Of a stretch of 64,000 bases of DNA, positions 4,474-64,000 are shown piece after piece. The notes beneath the pieces are model-generated. The model did no database searches and was not told the DNA's origin. It was given only the letters and a program-made list of their open reading frames with translations. The DNA comes from Cystobasidium ongulense (lineage: Eukaryota > Basidiomycota > Cystobasidiomycetes > Cystobasidiales > Cystobasidiaceae). Within the stretch, counting starts at the first letter, position 1, and every line of letters begins with the position of its first letter. The stretch spans positions 496,001 through 560,000 of the forward strand of contig BQUP01000005.1 of NCBI GenBank assembly GCA_022835595.1. The letters run 5' to 3'. The position numbers were made by a program, and so were the translations under genes.

Positions 4474-5613
4474 ATGGTGAACCCATTCGCAAGCTTCTTC
4501 AACTGGCTGCGGGGGCTGTTCTTTTCCAAGGAGGTCGAGATTATCATAGGTGCGTGGATGCACATCGAAGGCTGCAATCACGCTTTAGAGCTGACGCTTG
4601 TGCTTTCACTCTGTCTGCGCTGAGTATACAGTTGGTCTGCAGAATGCAGGTAAGCAACCTGCATTCCCCCTCGTTGCCATCGTCATGAGTATCGACAGCT
4701 GATAGGCCTTTTCACGCAACAGGCAAAACATCTCTCGTCAATGTCTTGACGGTATGGACAGCCAGCCAGCCTTACCACAGTCCATTCGGCACCATGTCTG
4801 ACACTTACATCCCTCAGGCCGGCCAGTTTTCAGAAGAAATGGTCCCCACAGTGTGAGTGCCGTTCGAAATGCTGCCCTTCAAGGAGGATACCTGACTCAT
4901 TCCGTTTACTTGAATATTCAGTGGGTATGTTGCTATGTTGTCGGAAAGGACCAAGGCTCCTTTGCCTCCTGTGCTGACTTGTATCGCAGATTCAACATGA
5001 AGAAAGTAAAGAAAGGCGCTGTGACAATCAAGCTGTGGGATATAGGAGGGTAAGCCGATTCTACTTCCTTCCTTACCCTAAAATCACAGACCTGACATAG
5101 GTGTATGCACAGACAAGCTCGCTTTAGAAGCATGTGGCAGCGATACGCGCGAGGAGCAAATGCTATACTGTGAGTGGGCTATGCCATGCTAATGGAGCCA
5201 GACTAATACTGCTACTCTACAGCTTCGTGGTAGATTCGGCCGACGCATCCCTTCTTGAGACTGCCAAGGCCGAGCTTCTTGCATTGATAGAGAAGCCTGA
5301 GCTATCGGGGATACCTCTACTTGTCCTATGCAACAAGACTGATCTACCCGATGCCATGAAAGCAGAGGAGTTGATCGACAAGCTGTATGTGCTCAACCAA
5401 CAAACGTCTGTATCATCATTCAAACTGACAGGTACATTTGCGACACATAGGGAACTGTCGAAAGTAACGGGGAGAGAATGCAGGTGAGCCTTGTCCGGGA
5501 CTGGAATGTTAAAGGACGAAAAACTAACTCTGCCTTCTAGCATATACTCGATTTCATGCATGAACTCCACGAATATCGATATAACCCTTGACTGGCTCAC
5601 CAAGCGGGCTTAG
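4474..5613 (+). CDS. ARL8: ARF-like small GTPase ARL8
   Basis: Lysosome/vacuole-linked ARF-family GTPase of 181 residues. The reading frame gives P-loop GLQNAGKTS, switch I VPTVGFNMKKV, switch II WDIGGQARFRSMW, NKxD as CNKTDLP, and a C-terminus ending ISCMNSTNIDITLDWLTKRA, all typical of ARL8. The N-terminus (MVNPFASFFNWLRG) is an amphipathic helix without Gly2, as expected for ARL8 rather than myristoylated ARF. I read ten coding exons: 4474-4549, 4632-4649, 4723-4751, 4818-4852, 4922-4924, 4990-5049, 5113-5169, 5223-5384, 5451-5483 and 5541-5613, summing to 546 nt. The fifth is only 3 nt and is needed to restore the conserved glycine of VGFN. The gene is divergent from the C2/SMP gene. Confidence 0.93.
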
Positions 5614-5800: not shown

Positions 5801-7100
5801 TTAAGTACTTTGCATATTCGGCTTAATATCATCCATACTTGACTCTCGGATGGTTGTGATAGGAGAAGCTTGATTTGATGAGATAGTCTGCTGCACTGAC
5901 TGGACTGCCTGCGGGACTGGGGCAGATGATGCAGCAGGTGTAGAAGCTGAGGATGTCGGTTGCACAGATTGGGAAGTTGCGTGCTGTTGTACAGGCCGCG
6001 GATAAGACGGCTGAGGGGTTGGCATATGTTGAGGCGCGGGAGTTGACGGCTGTGAACTGTATTGCTGTTGTTGCTGAGGCTGATGCAGCTGTTGTTGTTG
6101 TTGTTGTTGTTGCTGCTGCTGGTATTGCTGCTGCTGAGGTTGCTGCATCTGTTGCATATGCTGAACATGTGGCTGAGTCTGCTGTACCGGTTTCGGGACA
6201 TGCACAAGAGGTCTTGGAGGCCCGTTGATCCATGTAGCAGGATACGGACGTATCCATTCTATAGGCCTTGGATCACTATTCTCATCGTCCAAAACGACCG
6301 CCACCGGCTTGTATATCACTCGCTTCACGATGCGAGGGGTGCTGTCCCATGTTTCCAGCCCTGTTCTTAGAATGACAGATTGTCCTATCTCGTATTCTCC
6401 ACTGCTAGGCTGTTGACCTGGTCTAGATCCGACGAGAACGGAAGAAAAGCAAGCAATTCAGATGTCCGCTACCGAGAAGAGCTGATGGTTTGCGGAGGGA
6501 ACATACAATGTTTGATCTACACTCGCAAATAGTCTTACTCGTCTATTGTTCCCTGGTCCCACGCTGTGAAGAACAAATCAGAGCTTTGCATTGCCAATCT
6601 TTGTAGCTTTCCAAACTGACCACTCGAGATTACGGTCACGACAGAACTGGCAGCTGCGGGATTACAGTCATTTCAGCCCCAATTGGCAATAATCAAGCAG
6701 AACTTTGACTCACGCATCTGCTAAGCTTGTCCTTGCACACTGTACTGCCTGTACTCTGCAGTAATCTGCATCAAGTGGCACAAGTGTCAACAATCGATCA
6801 TGCAAGGCTCGTCGACATATTGCTCGTTTTCTGTATCTTGCCAGCGTACGACTGCAAGCCAGCTCGAGAGGTGACATCACCTTCCATTCAGGTGAACTCA
6901 CCACATGAAAGCTCTGACAAAGGCAGTCCGCCCGCTCCGTACTCCCAATTCGTGTTCGCATCCGGTACCAGACCCGAAGAAGCTGCTGCGAAAGCGCCAA
7001 AGACCATGTTGGCTTCTTGCTGATTGCGCAAAGCTTCGCCAGCCGCATCGTCCAGCGCTGATTGCTGCGGACGCCATGAAGGTGCTCCTGATGGATCCAT
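5801..7100 (-). CDS. Glutamine-rich protein with a Zn(II)2Cys6-type cluster
   Basis: Putative fungal transcription regulator of 320 residues. Five exons (7100-6902, 6765-6714, 6653-6621, 6563-6507, 6422-5801) join into one 963-nt frame. The joins create a full zinc-cluster spacing C-x2-C-x6-C-x8-C-x2-C-x6-C at residues about 66-95 (SCDYCRVQAVQC, then ACQFCRDRNLEC). Two features are unusual. The basic residues normally found between cysteines 2 and 3 are missing (CRVQAVQC), and the cluster is internal. After it comes a folded-looking stretch (EYEIGQSVILRTGLETW, IEWIRPYPATWINGPP) that I cannot assign, then a long Gln tract with CAG/CAA runs at about 6060-6190 and a Ser/Pro/Gln-rich tail. The start is the first ATG of exon 1. 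DNA binding is inferred from the spacing only. Confidence 0.66.
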
Positions 7101-7405: not shown

Positions 7406-10400
7406 TTAAACATCGTATGCTACACGAGCACCCGCAAATACGTACGGGTAGCCGGCTTGGTACTGTCAATCGAAGAACGAACGAACGTCAGAAATCGCAA
7501 ACGCCCAGTAAGAAGAGATACGCTGTTTTACTTACCCAATTGGTAAAGGTCTTTCTTCCTGCAACACGAGGAATTGTAGCTGTTGTTGATACAGAACAGA
7601 ACATCAAAAGGTTGTGATCAGTTGAGCTGCTCGTCTTACAATCTCCCAAGTTGATTAGAGCAGGCTTACCGAAACTACCACCAAGCATGATCCAGTGGCA
7701 GCCATCGAAAAAGTCTTCGGAATAGCCAGGATATAGCTCAGAGGTTCTCCATCCTTCATAAGCTGAGAATTCGGTAGAGCACCACTCCCAAACACCTCCA
7801 TTGGAAGCGCCAGATTTGCTACCGTCCCTATTGACAGCTGGCAATCGGGCACTAAACCCAAGGAATACAAGGTCAGTTCATACAAGGCAATGACATCCTC
7901 CATACAACGATGGAATTGACTCACGGAACCGGATGCCAATTTGCGAAACCGATATTTGCTCCGACATGATCGACAGGATTGTCGACTATGAATCTTCTCA
8001 ATTCTGGCTCGGTAGGTAATCTACCTCCTACGCTCTTGGCATGAGCAGCCAATTGCTTGCCGGATGCCATGACCGGCCAGTCCCCGGCAATATCGATGGG
8101 CACCAAGCTTGGTGCAGTGAGCACCTTAATTGACACGTTTCCATCTTCTGCGACTATCCATGATCCTGGTAAAAGTTCATCCTTCTTGTCTCGGGATGCA
8201 CTCTGCCAGAATTTGAGGTAGTCTCCATTGCTAATAGGTAAAAGGGAGATCTTGAATGAAGGTACTTGAACAGTACGCTGAGGAGACTCATTGTCCCAGC
8301 CGAAAGTGTGGGCAACGTCGAAAGTAGTTTGATGGTCGAGATGGTCGAAATCATCATGTCCAATCTCAACGCTCGAAGTGAGATAAGTGACGGTGGTTTT
8401 TTCGATACTTCTCTGCTCCTTCTCTACCTGAGTGCGCCACTGTAGTGCAAGAGCACGCCAGTCAGGCGTAGTGAATCCAGGTGCGGGATTAAGCTTCTGA
8501 GCCGGGATCTGAGCGCACATGCTGCAATGAGCAACAGACACGAATCAGATCTATACTGGCAGCTTGTGTGAAGAGCTGCAGGACTTACTATAGCAGAGTC
8601 TCTAAATGCATCACCTCATGCTCATAAACCATCTGTAAGACTCTAACCAATCTAGTATCAATCTCCTCTGAACTCTTTCCATCCAATTTCTGGTCGTATA
8701 TACCATGAAGACGAGATCTAACTCTATCTCTATATTCAACAATTTCATCGACATGTGGCCAATCTTCCATTTGAGTTGGAACTACTGAATGAGCATGTAC
8801 TTTTGATGGATCTTCCATGTTTGGATCTATTCCTCTTTCGAACATCTCGGGATAATGAGCTGGTTCGGTATATCCTTTTCCAGTGTATTTCTGGCAGATG
8901 GCAAGGCAGTTTTAGTTGCAAGTTACCCATCTCAGAGAAGTCGATGTTACGATCTGCGACTCACGCTTAGCTGGATATCGAGGAAGCCAGGTATGTGACC
9001 GAGGTAGAACAAACAGATATGCCTCAGGTCGATGGGCTTGGTATGAAGGAGGTCTCTCGGGATCATAGACAATGTCTGTGCGTGCACCGCAAGATAAGAC
9101 AAAGGTCAGCTTCTCATCATGGCAACATAACTCGTTTCGTCAAGCTTACGACCGAATCCCAAGCAGCCCAGAGTCTGTCCCATTCCTCCAAGCTAGGTAA
9201 TCCGAAAGGATTTTCACTCTTTTCAATACTTTCAAGAGTACTAGGGAAATGGAAAGGAGCTTTCTCAAGTAAATATAAATGATAATTACCGGTAATTTTA
9301 TCATCTGTCCATTTTTGAACTAATCTTAATCCAGCAGAAGAGAATAATTTTAAAGCTTCTAATTCTGTATATTTGTATGATCTTTCAATGGCTATCAATT
9401 CATCCTTTTCAAATTGGATAGTATCGTTCACTTCTCCTGAAATGGGCAACTCGAAATTGTCTTTCACACGTAGGTAAGCTTCGTGTCTTCCTTCTCTTTT
9501 ATTATATCGATTCGCATATTCGAATTTGTCTTGAGCAAGACTTCCTTCTTTGATATCTTCATTCAAGATTCGACTAACATGGTCTACTCCATTCAAGATG
9601 AAAGCACGTGTAACTCCAAGTGAGTCATTATATGCCTTTTCAATTCTAGGACCATCGTCGCATCCATCAATACCAATAAGTAGAGTATCTCCAACGGTCA
9701 TAGCTTCATTACTGATCTTTTGCAAGAATTCAGCTCCTTCTTCCCGCGAATAATTACCAATACTGGATCCTAAGAAGAGTATATTCTTTCTTTCTGAATG
9801 GATCGTAGATGAGTTATCTAGCTTGCCTTGTTTGAGGTATGGAAGAGCCTCATCGTATGAAGCACAAATGCCTCTAGCTAGGATTTTCTTGTTTGCGGTC
9901 TCTCCTTCCGCGTTTGAAGCTTCCTCCTTTGCATCTTTACCACCCTCATCATCAGGGATAGAAGTGGTAACAGCATCAGGAATAGTTTCCTTCAAAGAAT
10001 CCAAAGTCTGAACAAGTTGACCGAATTCAAGATCCAAAGCGAAATAATTGACATTTGAGAGTATAGATTCCGAGAGTATGGTATCTGAAATAGCTTGCAA
10101 TAATACCGATGTCTTTTTCAGACTTCCTGCACCTAGTTCGATGACTGAACCTGTAGTTTCGGTAGTGGAAGTATCGTCGATGCTAAGACTCCCGTTGACA
10201 CTGTACAAAGACCCATATCGAAAAGTATTAGCTTAGATTGCCAAACGAAGGGGTGTTGCAATGGCATGATCAGCAGTCTTGCACGCACCCGTAGTTGTTC
10301 CTGCCAACTCTCCCGTCGCCCCTGCGTAGGGTCAAACAAGCGAAATATCAGTATAACAATCTTTCAAAGCATGACCCAGAGCCGACAAGCTGAGCGGTTT

Positions 10401-44724: not shown

Positions 44725-44961
44725 TGACTGCCTTGCTGCTGCAGGAGCCAGTGTCTTCTGAGGTTCAAAACGAGTGGAGAAGCGAGTGTGGGTGATGATA
44801 TGTCAAACCGAGCTTCACTGTATGCGCCGTTCCCTTACGCTTTTCGGTTGGCGTTAGGCGGACACGACGACGCCTCTTTCAAGCTGACTTGACCTCTGAC
44901 CAATTCCACCACAATCCAAAACAACCACCGACTGCCCGCCTACCCAAACCAACGCATCTCA

Positions 44962-45857
44962 ATGATGTTCACCAACGTGCTAGTCTCCAGCTTCGCGCCG
45001 TTCCCAACGCTCTCCCTCCAGCTGCCATCCGACCTGCCAGCCGAGTCTACACTTGCCTACGTACTCAGCCCGCTCTGCGATCCAGCAAGCCAATCCCTCA
45101 GTCTCTGCAATGGACGCAGCATATCCAGTGGTGCAACGGTCGGTTCGCTGGCTGCTAGCGGCTCCTTCGCCCAGATTAGGCTCGCAGTCCGTCTGCCTGG
45201 CGGCAAAGGTGGTTTCGGATCACAGCTTCGAGCAGCAGGAGGGCGAATGAACAGCAAGAGAGGCAAAGAGAACACAGATAGTTGCAGAGATCTCAACGGA
45301 CGTAGATTATCAACTATTAAGGAGGCAAAGAAGCTGGCGGAATATGTAGCGTCTGCACCTGAACGTGAGGCTGCAAAGAGAGAGGAGGCCAAGGCGAGAT
45401 TGACGAAACTGCAGGAAGAGATACAGAGAATGGATGGTGGGAACACTTCTGGAAGCGACAAAGCATCAGGCTCGAATGCTGGCGCTTCCACTTCCAAAGC
45501 TGGTGTGAAGCGTCGTCTGGACGATCAGAAGTTCGTTGAAGAGAGCAGAGAGATGGTCGATAATGTCAAGAATGCTGTTGCAGCAGGTGAGCTTGCACAT
45601 CCTCGCAGCTTGGACATGTACTTGAATGTAGCTAATATACATTTCCCTCAGCCATGATGAAAAAGCGCAAGCTTGCCAAGACAGCTCCACCCGCCGCCGT
45701 CGCTGAGGCTTCAAGTACAACGTCGTCGACTCCAAAGACGCCGACTGCTGCAGCCACAGCCTCGTCAAGCGTGCCTTCCACCAGCGAGATCGGAGAACCC
45801 TCCTCTGTAGCCTCGGCAGAAACTCCAGCTGCGGCGTCAGTATCCGCTTCTGCATGA
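44962..45857 (+). CDS. SDE2: SDE2, ubiquitin-fold splicing and genome-maintenance factor
   Basis: A 276-residue protein, two exons (44962-45586, 45652-45857). The N-terminal ubiquitin-like fold (MMFTNVLVSSFAPFPTLSLQ to IRLAVRLPGG) ends in the invariant processing site GGKGGFGSQLRAAGGRM, where deubiquitinases cut after the second Gly to release a Lys-starting C-terminal protein. The released part continues NGRRLSTIKEAKKLAEYVAS, a coiled-coil, and a basic MMKKRKLAK near the second exon start, then a Ser/Thr/Ala-rich tail. In S. pombe the processed form joins the spliceosome for intron-specific splicing and supports telomeric silencing. The start codon is followed directly by a second ATG, either could serve. 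Confidence 0.9.
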
Positions 45858-62417: not shown

Positions 62418-64000
62418 CTACCAGGCTAGCCAAGCAAGTGGACTCTTCGGGAATGCACGATTGAGAGCCTTCCTACTCTCGTCTAGCAAGAGGAGACCGA
62501 CTGCAAAGGCCACAGGAATGAACCAGTACTCAACCGATACTCCTCTAGTAAGAAAAGTTTTGTTGAAAAAGGGAACGCTGGGGTTGTCGGAATATCAGTA
62601 TACCGTATGCTGCAAATACAGAACGAGACGGCTTACTAGGAGAAGAAAGAAGCAATGACCAGGGATAGGCCCATAGCTGGGAAGATAGCCAAATTGCGTC
62701 CAATGCCGCGAAACGGATTCTGCTGCAAGATTGAGAGCTTTCTTGTCCTTGAGCTCAACAAGTTGCCGAATTGCATTATCACAAGAGTGTAGAAGTAGAC
62801 GCTTTGAGCTCGGTTGATCTCTTCATTGTAGAAATCCGCAGAAATGCCTTCGGGCAGAACGCCATAAGCTAAAGCAATCTGGCTGAACCGAATGCCCCGC
62901 TTTTGTAGGTACCAGAAGGCCATCGCGCAAGCGCATAGGGATTCCGTCAGACCGAGGAAGCCGTAAGCGTGAAGCAGGAGACGCCATGTGACGAGTCGAT
63001 CCTTTCTTGGGTTTCGAGGAGGACGAGACAGCAAATCGGCTTCTGGCTTCTCTAGGACCATTGTCAGGGCTGGAAGGACGTCGGTAGCGACACAGATAAT
63101 GACTAGGGAAAGGACTGGGCATCAGGCAGTGCTATTGGACGAACAGAGATTGTCATAACTCACTCATTTGAAGGTTGCTGAGTACTTGAGGTAGACCGAA
63201 GACAGCATTTAAGATGACGGGCATGAGCTCAGAGAAGGAACCAGCGGCTATATGACACATGTTAGATAGGAAGCGAGGTTTCTTAAGGACAGGTGTAAGC
63301 TTACGGAGCAGATATAGAATGGTCTTTTGCAGATTGTCAAATACGAGACGACCTCTCTGGATAGCAACGACGATAGAAGAGAAGCTCTCCAAGAGAACCA
63401 TATCTGCCGCTTCAATCGCAACATCGGATCCTCCGCCCATTGCAATACCAATATCGGCTTGCTTGAGAGAGGGACTGTCGTTGACGCCGTCACCGGTCAT
63501 GCCCACACAATAATTTCTTTTCTGTAGTTCCTTGACGATACGAAGCTTCTGTTCGGGACTTGTACGAGCAAAGACGACCTCTTCATATGAACAGGCGGCA
63601 TCCCAGTTAGGGTCGGTCATTTTGAGCATGTCATCACCTTCGAGTACGAGTGAAGTACGGCCAAGGTGTATGTCACCCCTGCCATCAACCATTATTCCCT
63701 TTTCCGACTCCATGTCGTTGAACAAGTCGTTTAAGCCGTGAACCCGGGTAGCATCGGTAATGATGTTGCATTTCTCGGCAATAGCAGTGGCAGTCAATTT
63801 GAAATCACCGGTGACCTATAGTATGTCAATCTATTAGCATTCGCTTTGGCAACAAGCAGTTAGATACTGTGTCTTCACTCACCATAAATACCTTGATTCC
63901 CGCTTGCCTGCAGATCGAGATAACCTCGGGGATCTCTTCTCGAGGAGGGTCCACGATTCCGACGAGCCCGATGATCTCGAGATCCCTGGTGTGAGAAGTT
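62418..64000 (-). CDS. P-type cation ATPase (type II, IIC/ACU-like), N-terminal part beyond window edge
   Basis: C-terminal half of an ion-pumping ATPase. It enters the window at IIGLVGIVDPPREEIPEVIS, then the nucleotide-domain motifs AGIKVFMVTGDFKLTATAIA, VFARTSPEQKLRIVKELQKR, the hinge GMTGDGVNDSPSLKQADIGI, AMGGGSDVAIEAADMVLLE, and membrane segments (GSFSELMPVILNAVFGLPQV, LSLVIICVATDVLPALTMVL, YFYTLVIMQFGNLLSSR). The last exon reads SVEYWFIPVAFAVGLLLLDE and ends SPLAWLAW at 62418. The D-x-x-P-P-R, TGD and GDGVND motifs are intact. The family is Na+/K+ or K+-uptake type as in fungal IIC-like pumps; ion specificity cannot be read from this half. The phosphorylation motif DKTGT lies upstream, outside the window. 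Confidence 0.88.

Follow-up and report, generated by a model that had tools for sequence, protein, structure and literature searches.

In the CYP621A P450 genes of Fusarium, a 1-nt exon supported by SRA reads is described in the available part of the report (PMC12940212). Experimentally verified 1-nt exons are found in the plant genes APC11 (PMC4674806) and VPS55 (PMC8831610). As far as the accessible portions of these two papers go, the exon of Arabidopsis APC11 is constitutive and a consecutive removal of its introns has been proposed (PMC4674806), and some VPS55 genes also yield transcripts without the exon (PMC8831610). For Cryptococcus neoformans, in which the median intron length is 56 nt, the accessible section describes exons of down to 1 bp (PMC3990503), and 6 bp is the shortest exon reported for P450 genes of Phanerochaete in the excerpt at hand. 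Exons of 3 nt occur in animals, i.e., in TnT and hth of Drosophila and in Ncam of rodents (PMC7392893, PMC8042270), and the 3-nt exon of hth alternates with a 48-nt exon, according to the available texts. Exons of 1–3 nt probe the lower limit of what the spliceosome will retain as an exon, and they also give rise to annotation errors. The preliminary description of the present locus called exons this short very rare; this is a fair statement, but 1-nt exons had already been published in plants and fungi. Among the papers listed in searches of an open-access library for ARL8 in fungi and basidiomycetes, microexons of Arf-like genes, fungal microexons, and 3-nt exons, no report of a microexon in ARL8 was seen.

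The locus is an ARL8 gene on the forward strand of the window, which is the whole stretch of 64,000 nt analyzed. Its coding part, with the stop codon TAG included, extends from 4474 to 5613 and consists of ten exons (4474–4549, 4632–4649, 4723–4751, 4818–4852, 4922–4924, 4990–5049, 5113–5169, 5223–5384, 5451–5483, and 5541–5613); the lengths of the exons other than the fifth are 76, 18, 29, 35, 60, 57, 162, 33, and 73 nt. The spliced translation gives 181 amino acids and ends at the stop codon. Residues 3–179 of the product align without gaps to ARL8A (PDB 4ile_A) over 177 residues with 226.8 bits, and the full model matches Pfam Arf (PF00025) with 164.0 bits. Five PDB matches with an E-value of 1e-45 or better (210.3–226.8 bits) were obtained, namely two ARL8A chains, ARL10C, ARL10B, and ARL8B, where ARL10B and ARL10C are presumably earlier designations of ARL8 proteins. 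Arf3p followed with 124.7 bits, as scored with a draft model having its last exon in a wrong frame. Within the Arf family, the best match of the product is ARL8, over the full length. The translation contains GLQNAGKT, PTVGF, WDIGGQ, and NKTD, which we take to be the P-loop, the PTxGF motif of switch I, the WDIGG motif of switch II, and the NKxD motif, respectively. The presence of nine introns in 546 coding bases suggests a lineage rich in introns. In the accessible part of one study, basidiomycetes including Cryptococcus are termed the most intron-rich fungi (PMC3990503). Six of the nine introns are located at or before coding base 221. Exon 2 (4632–4649, forward strand), which is 18 nt long and belongs to the P-loop region, is a second microexon of this gene.

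The fifth exon is composed of the three bases TGG at 4922–4924 on the forward strand. Exon 4 (4818–4852, 35 nt) ends with the codons of VPT plus the GT of a Val codon. The T of TGG completes this codon, and its GG opens the Gly codon, to which exon 6 (4990–5049, 60 nt), also on the forward strand, contributes the closing A before FNMKK; the split codons are GT/T and GG/A. Rereading and re-splicing of the sequence reproduced the exon borders of the preliminary description, and translation confirmed its assignment of the three bases to these two codons. We enumerated splice patterns in 4818–5049 that have GT-AG, GC-AG, or AT-AC ends and comprise either a single intron or two, the minimum intron length being 35 nt. 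Among the 555 patterns that are in frame and free of stop codons (29 with one intron and 526 with two), a single one yields VPTVGFNMKK, with introns 4853–4921 and 4925–4989 around TGG, which agrees with the preliminary description, where this was the only route found to the motif. The shorter GFNMKK was found in two of the 555 patterns, both with two introns. Since none of the 29 one-intron patterns holds GFNMKK, the glycine is not supplied by any single intron. With a length of 3 nt and with splice sites on both sides predicted from sequence alone, TGG would qualify as a microexon (an internal exon of 30 nt or less with functional splice sites on either side), and this predicted microexon of ARL8 has strong support from the sequence.

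The two flanking introns have the lengths and the GT...AG ends originally given for them. Intron 4 (4853–4921, forward strand, phase 2) is 69 nt long, begins with GTGAGT and ends with TTCAG, with CTGAC 26 nt from its 3′ end; intron 5 (4925–4989, forward strand, phase 2) is 65 nt long, begins with GTATGT and ends with CGCAG, with CTGAC 12 nt from its 3′ end. All nine introns of the gene are of the GT...AG type with lengths of 53–82 nt, each having a branch-like motif, and the lengths of introns 4 and 5 are inside the range of the other seven (53–82 nt). An origin by duplication of one intron was also considered and rejected; the similarity between introns 4 and 5 is at chance level (equalled or exceeded in 62.5% of 200 shuffles), and the best shared piece is 6 bases long. 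For introns elsewhere in the window, a crude gene finder predicted 479 introns (median, 107 nt), among which 217 had a length of 120 nt or more and 185 one of 137 nt or more, but it heavily over-predicts, to a large extent in DNA that is probably non-coding, and these totals were set aside. At ARL8, the same program also placed an exon of 3 nt, flanked by introns of 71 and 78 nt, the outer borders of which differ from our model. A stricter scan gave 13 introns (median 86 nt) at a first threshold and two introns, one of at least 137 nt, at another. In one short, hand-picked model of a HAD hydrolase built on a Pfam hit (62418–63885, minus strand), all four introns are 57–67 nt long. Since the yield of the window-wide scans was small, the comparison rests on the seven other ARL8 introns.

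A splice-site scoring matrix was built from these seven introns, which is a small set, and the training introns themselves scored 7.2–10.0 bits for donors and 5.8–10.1 bits for acceptors. The donors of introns 4 and 5 scored 7.7 and 7.1 bits; values at least as high are reached by 1.2 and 1.7% of GTs in the window, respectively. The acceptor of intron 4 scored 8.4 bits, a value that 0.3% of AGs reach or exceed. The acceptor of intron 5 scored only 0.3 bits with this seven-intron matrix, and 44% of AGs in the window score as high. Because this acceptor is common to the skipped form, its weak score cannot separate the included form from the skipped one. As the gene is probably fungal and the two introns lie next to each other, they might also represent a stwintron, in which one splice element of an external intron is split by an internal intron and no exon separates the two; such introns are excised by consecutive reactions, according to the accessible text on them (PMC5639578). 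Here, however, each intron has a donor, an acceptor, and a branch motif of its own, all uninterrupted and without nesting, which differs from the defining arrangement of a stwintron, and the glycine needs three coding bases between the introns. We regard a stwintron as extremely unlikely.

Without the three-base exon, direct joining of 4852 to 4990 keeps the frame and yields VPTVFNMKK with the loss of just one glycine, as was foreseen in the preliminary description. In each of the three alignments shown, the skipped form is interrupted by one gap, which coincides with the glycine; the score of this form against 4ile_A is 218.0 vs. 226.8 bits for the full model (8.8 bits less), and that against Pfam Arf is 154.6 vs. 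164.0 bits for the included form (9.4 bits less). The glycine of switch I is kept in all five aligned ARL8 chain sequences, which represent no more than the two paralogues ARL8A and ARL8B; its conservation presumably extends beyond these two. The same joining would result if 4853–4989 were one intron of 137 nt, with TGG being accidental and the protein lacking the glycine. Such an intron could use the outer donor and acceptor, and three of the 13 introns in the strict scan have at least 137 nt, indicating that longer introns are possible in this genome. It would, however, cost a conserved residue, its length would be exceptional for this gene, at 1.7 times that of the longest other ARL8 intron (82 nt), and it would leave a TGG element of this quality to chance.

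The probability of such an element was estimated by fixing the outer splice sites and dinucleotide-shuffling the 126 bases between them 200,000 times, and also by substituting 127,427 overlapping other pieces of the window for the 126 bases. With both introns being at least 45 nt long, AG-NGG-GT appeared in 1,153 of the 200,000 shuffles and in 786 of the 127,427 window pieces, and the stricter YAG-NGG-GTRNG in 57 and 90, respectively. When CTRAY at 8–40 nt from the end of each intron was additionally required, three of the 200,000 shuffles and none of the 127,427 window pieces remained. A TGG element of such quality would rarely arise by chance, and we consider the single 137-nt intron to be very unlikely.

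We therefore return to the reading in which 4922–4924 is an exon, and regard it as very probable that TGG is a real, constitutive 3-nt exon of the ARL8 gene. Introns 4 and 5 would each be recognized by intron definition, since each has its own donor, branch motif, and acceptor and a normal length; the very short other exons of ARL8 (18, 29, 33, and 35 nt) also fit with intron definition. We infer constitutive use. The two introns are probably removed consecutively, because three bases cannot hold both the upstream and the downstream recognition complexes as exon definition would need. With TGG included, the PTVGF motif of switch I would have its conserved glycine. Arf proteins have PTxGF in switch I, where Thr binds magnesium and the residues after Gly begin the interswitch; therefore, loss of the glycine should shift the strand and likely inactivate the protein. 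From this we infer that skipping would leave an ARL8 one residue short in switch I, which is most likely non-functional.

Inclusion and skipping might instead depend on conditions, so that ARL8 would exist as two proteins, with and without one glycine of switch I. Skipping preserves the frame and leaves the outer splice sites unchanged, and, in the available parts of the respective reports, Trichoderma Xlr2 provides a precedent of a microexon switch and the 3-nt exon of Drosophila TnT is left out in one larval muscle system. Against this, the residue lost would be the glycine kept in all five ARL8 chains (ARL8A and ARL8B), in a nucleotide-binding switch, which is an argument of likelihood only. 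Given this conservation and the ungapped alignment of the included model to ARL8A, the one-residue protein switch suggested in the preliminary description was unsupported. A regulated TGG exon is, in our estimation, unlikely; slightly less likely still is that its skipping would create a second ARL8, naturally nucleotide-uncoupled or dominant-negative, that tunes ARL8-dependent transport. Constitutive inclusion would be the simpler reading.

Other features of the window were recorded. An SDE2 splicing-regulator domain is found at 44893–45657 on the forward strand (Pfam SDE2, 9.2e-25), and it also weakly matches, below the cut-off, the yeast-type N-terminal model. Fission yeast Sde2 reportedly acts on particular introns, and a link of the present SDE2 to the TGG exon of ARL8 would be pure speculation. 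On the minus strand, Pfam matches of a histidine-specific methyltransferase (9117–10232) and an FGE-sulfatase (7921–8544) are arranged in tandem, and together (7921–10232) they presumably resemble the fungal Egt1 ergothioneine gene fusion. A Pet127 match was also obtained with Pfam. Together with the short introns, the matches to SDE2, to the two Egt1-like domains, and to Pet127 point to a probable fungal origin of the window. A low-complexity run of TTG/CTG triplets at 6080–6140 lies inside minus-strand open frames, in one of which a glutamine-rich stretch is predicted. No Rfam match was found in the whole window at gathering scores. Relatives having this pair of introns were sought with the ARL8 protein in collections of viral and genome contigs, which are not eukaryote collections; 13 pattern matches in the viral contigs, with the first 147 residues as a query, and 55 in the genome contigs were obtained, and none of either was confirmed by tblastn.

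A gene finder is likely to call a 137-nt intron at this locus and thus to produce an ARL8 without the switch I glycine. Omission of a 3-nt exon is especially treacherous, since the frame is kept and no alarm is raised.

The TGG of ARL8 joins an already known class of ultra-short exons. With the exons of plant APC11 and VPS55, it shares the position of an ultra-short exon between two introns, whereas these are, in the accessible parts of the papers, experimentally verified 1-nt exons of other genes in plants. Cryptococcus neoformans is similar in having an intron-dense fungal genome with short introns and ultra-short exons, but the 1-bp exons are reported without gene names in the section on them, as far as its available text goes. 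The exon of Drosophila TnT has the same length of 3 nt and likewise adds or removes one residue; in contrast to ARL8, the accessible texts present TnT, hth, and Ncam as alternatively spliced animal genes. As described in the available part of its report, CYP621A of Fusarium is also a fungal gene in which an ultra-short exon, inferred through homology and splice sites as TGG was, is hidden in an apparent intron of approximately double length (139 nt, compared with 137 nt in ARL8) and supplies part of the codon for a glycine in a conserved motif. The same text points to the differences: the gene is unrelated to ARL8, the exon of CYP621A has transcript reads whereas that of ARL8 was predicted from DNA alone, and skipping of 1 nt shifts the frame, whereas skipping of the 3 nt in ARL8 keeps it. 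With these differences, the Fusarium exon may be seen as nearly a twin of the ARL8 case.
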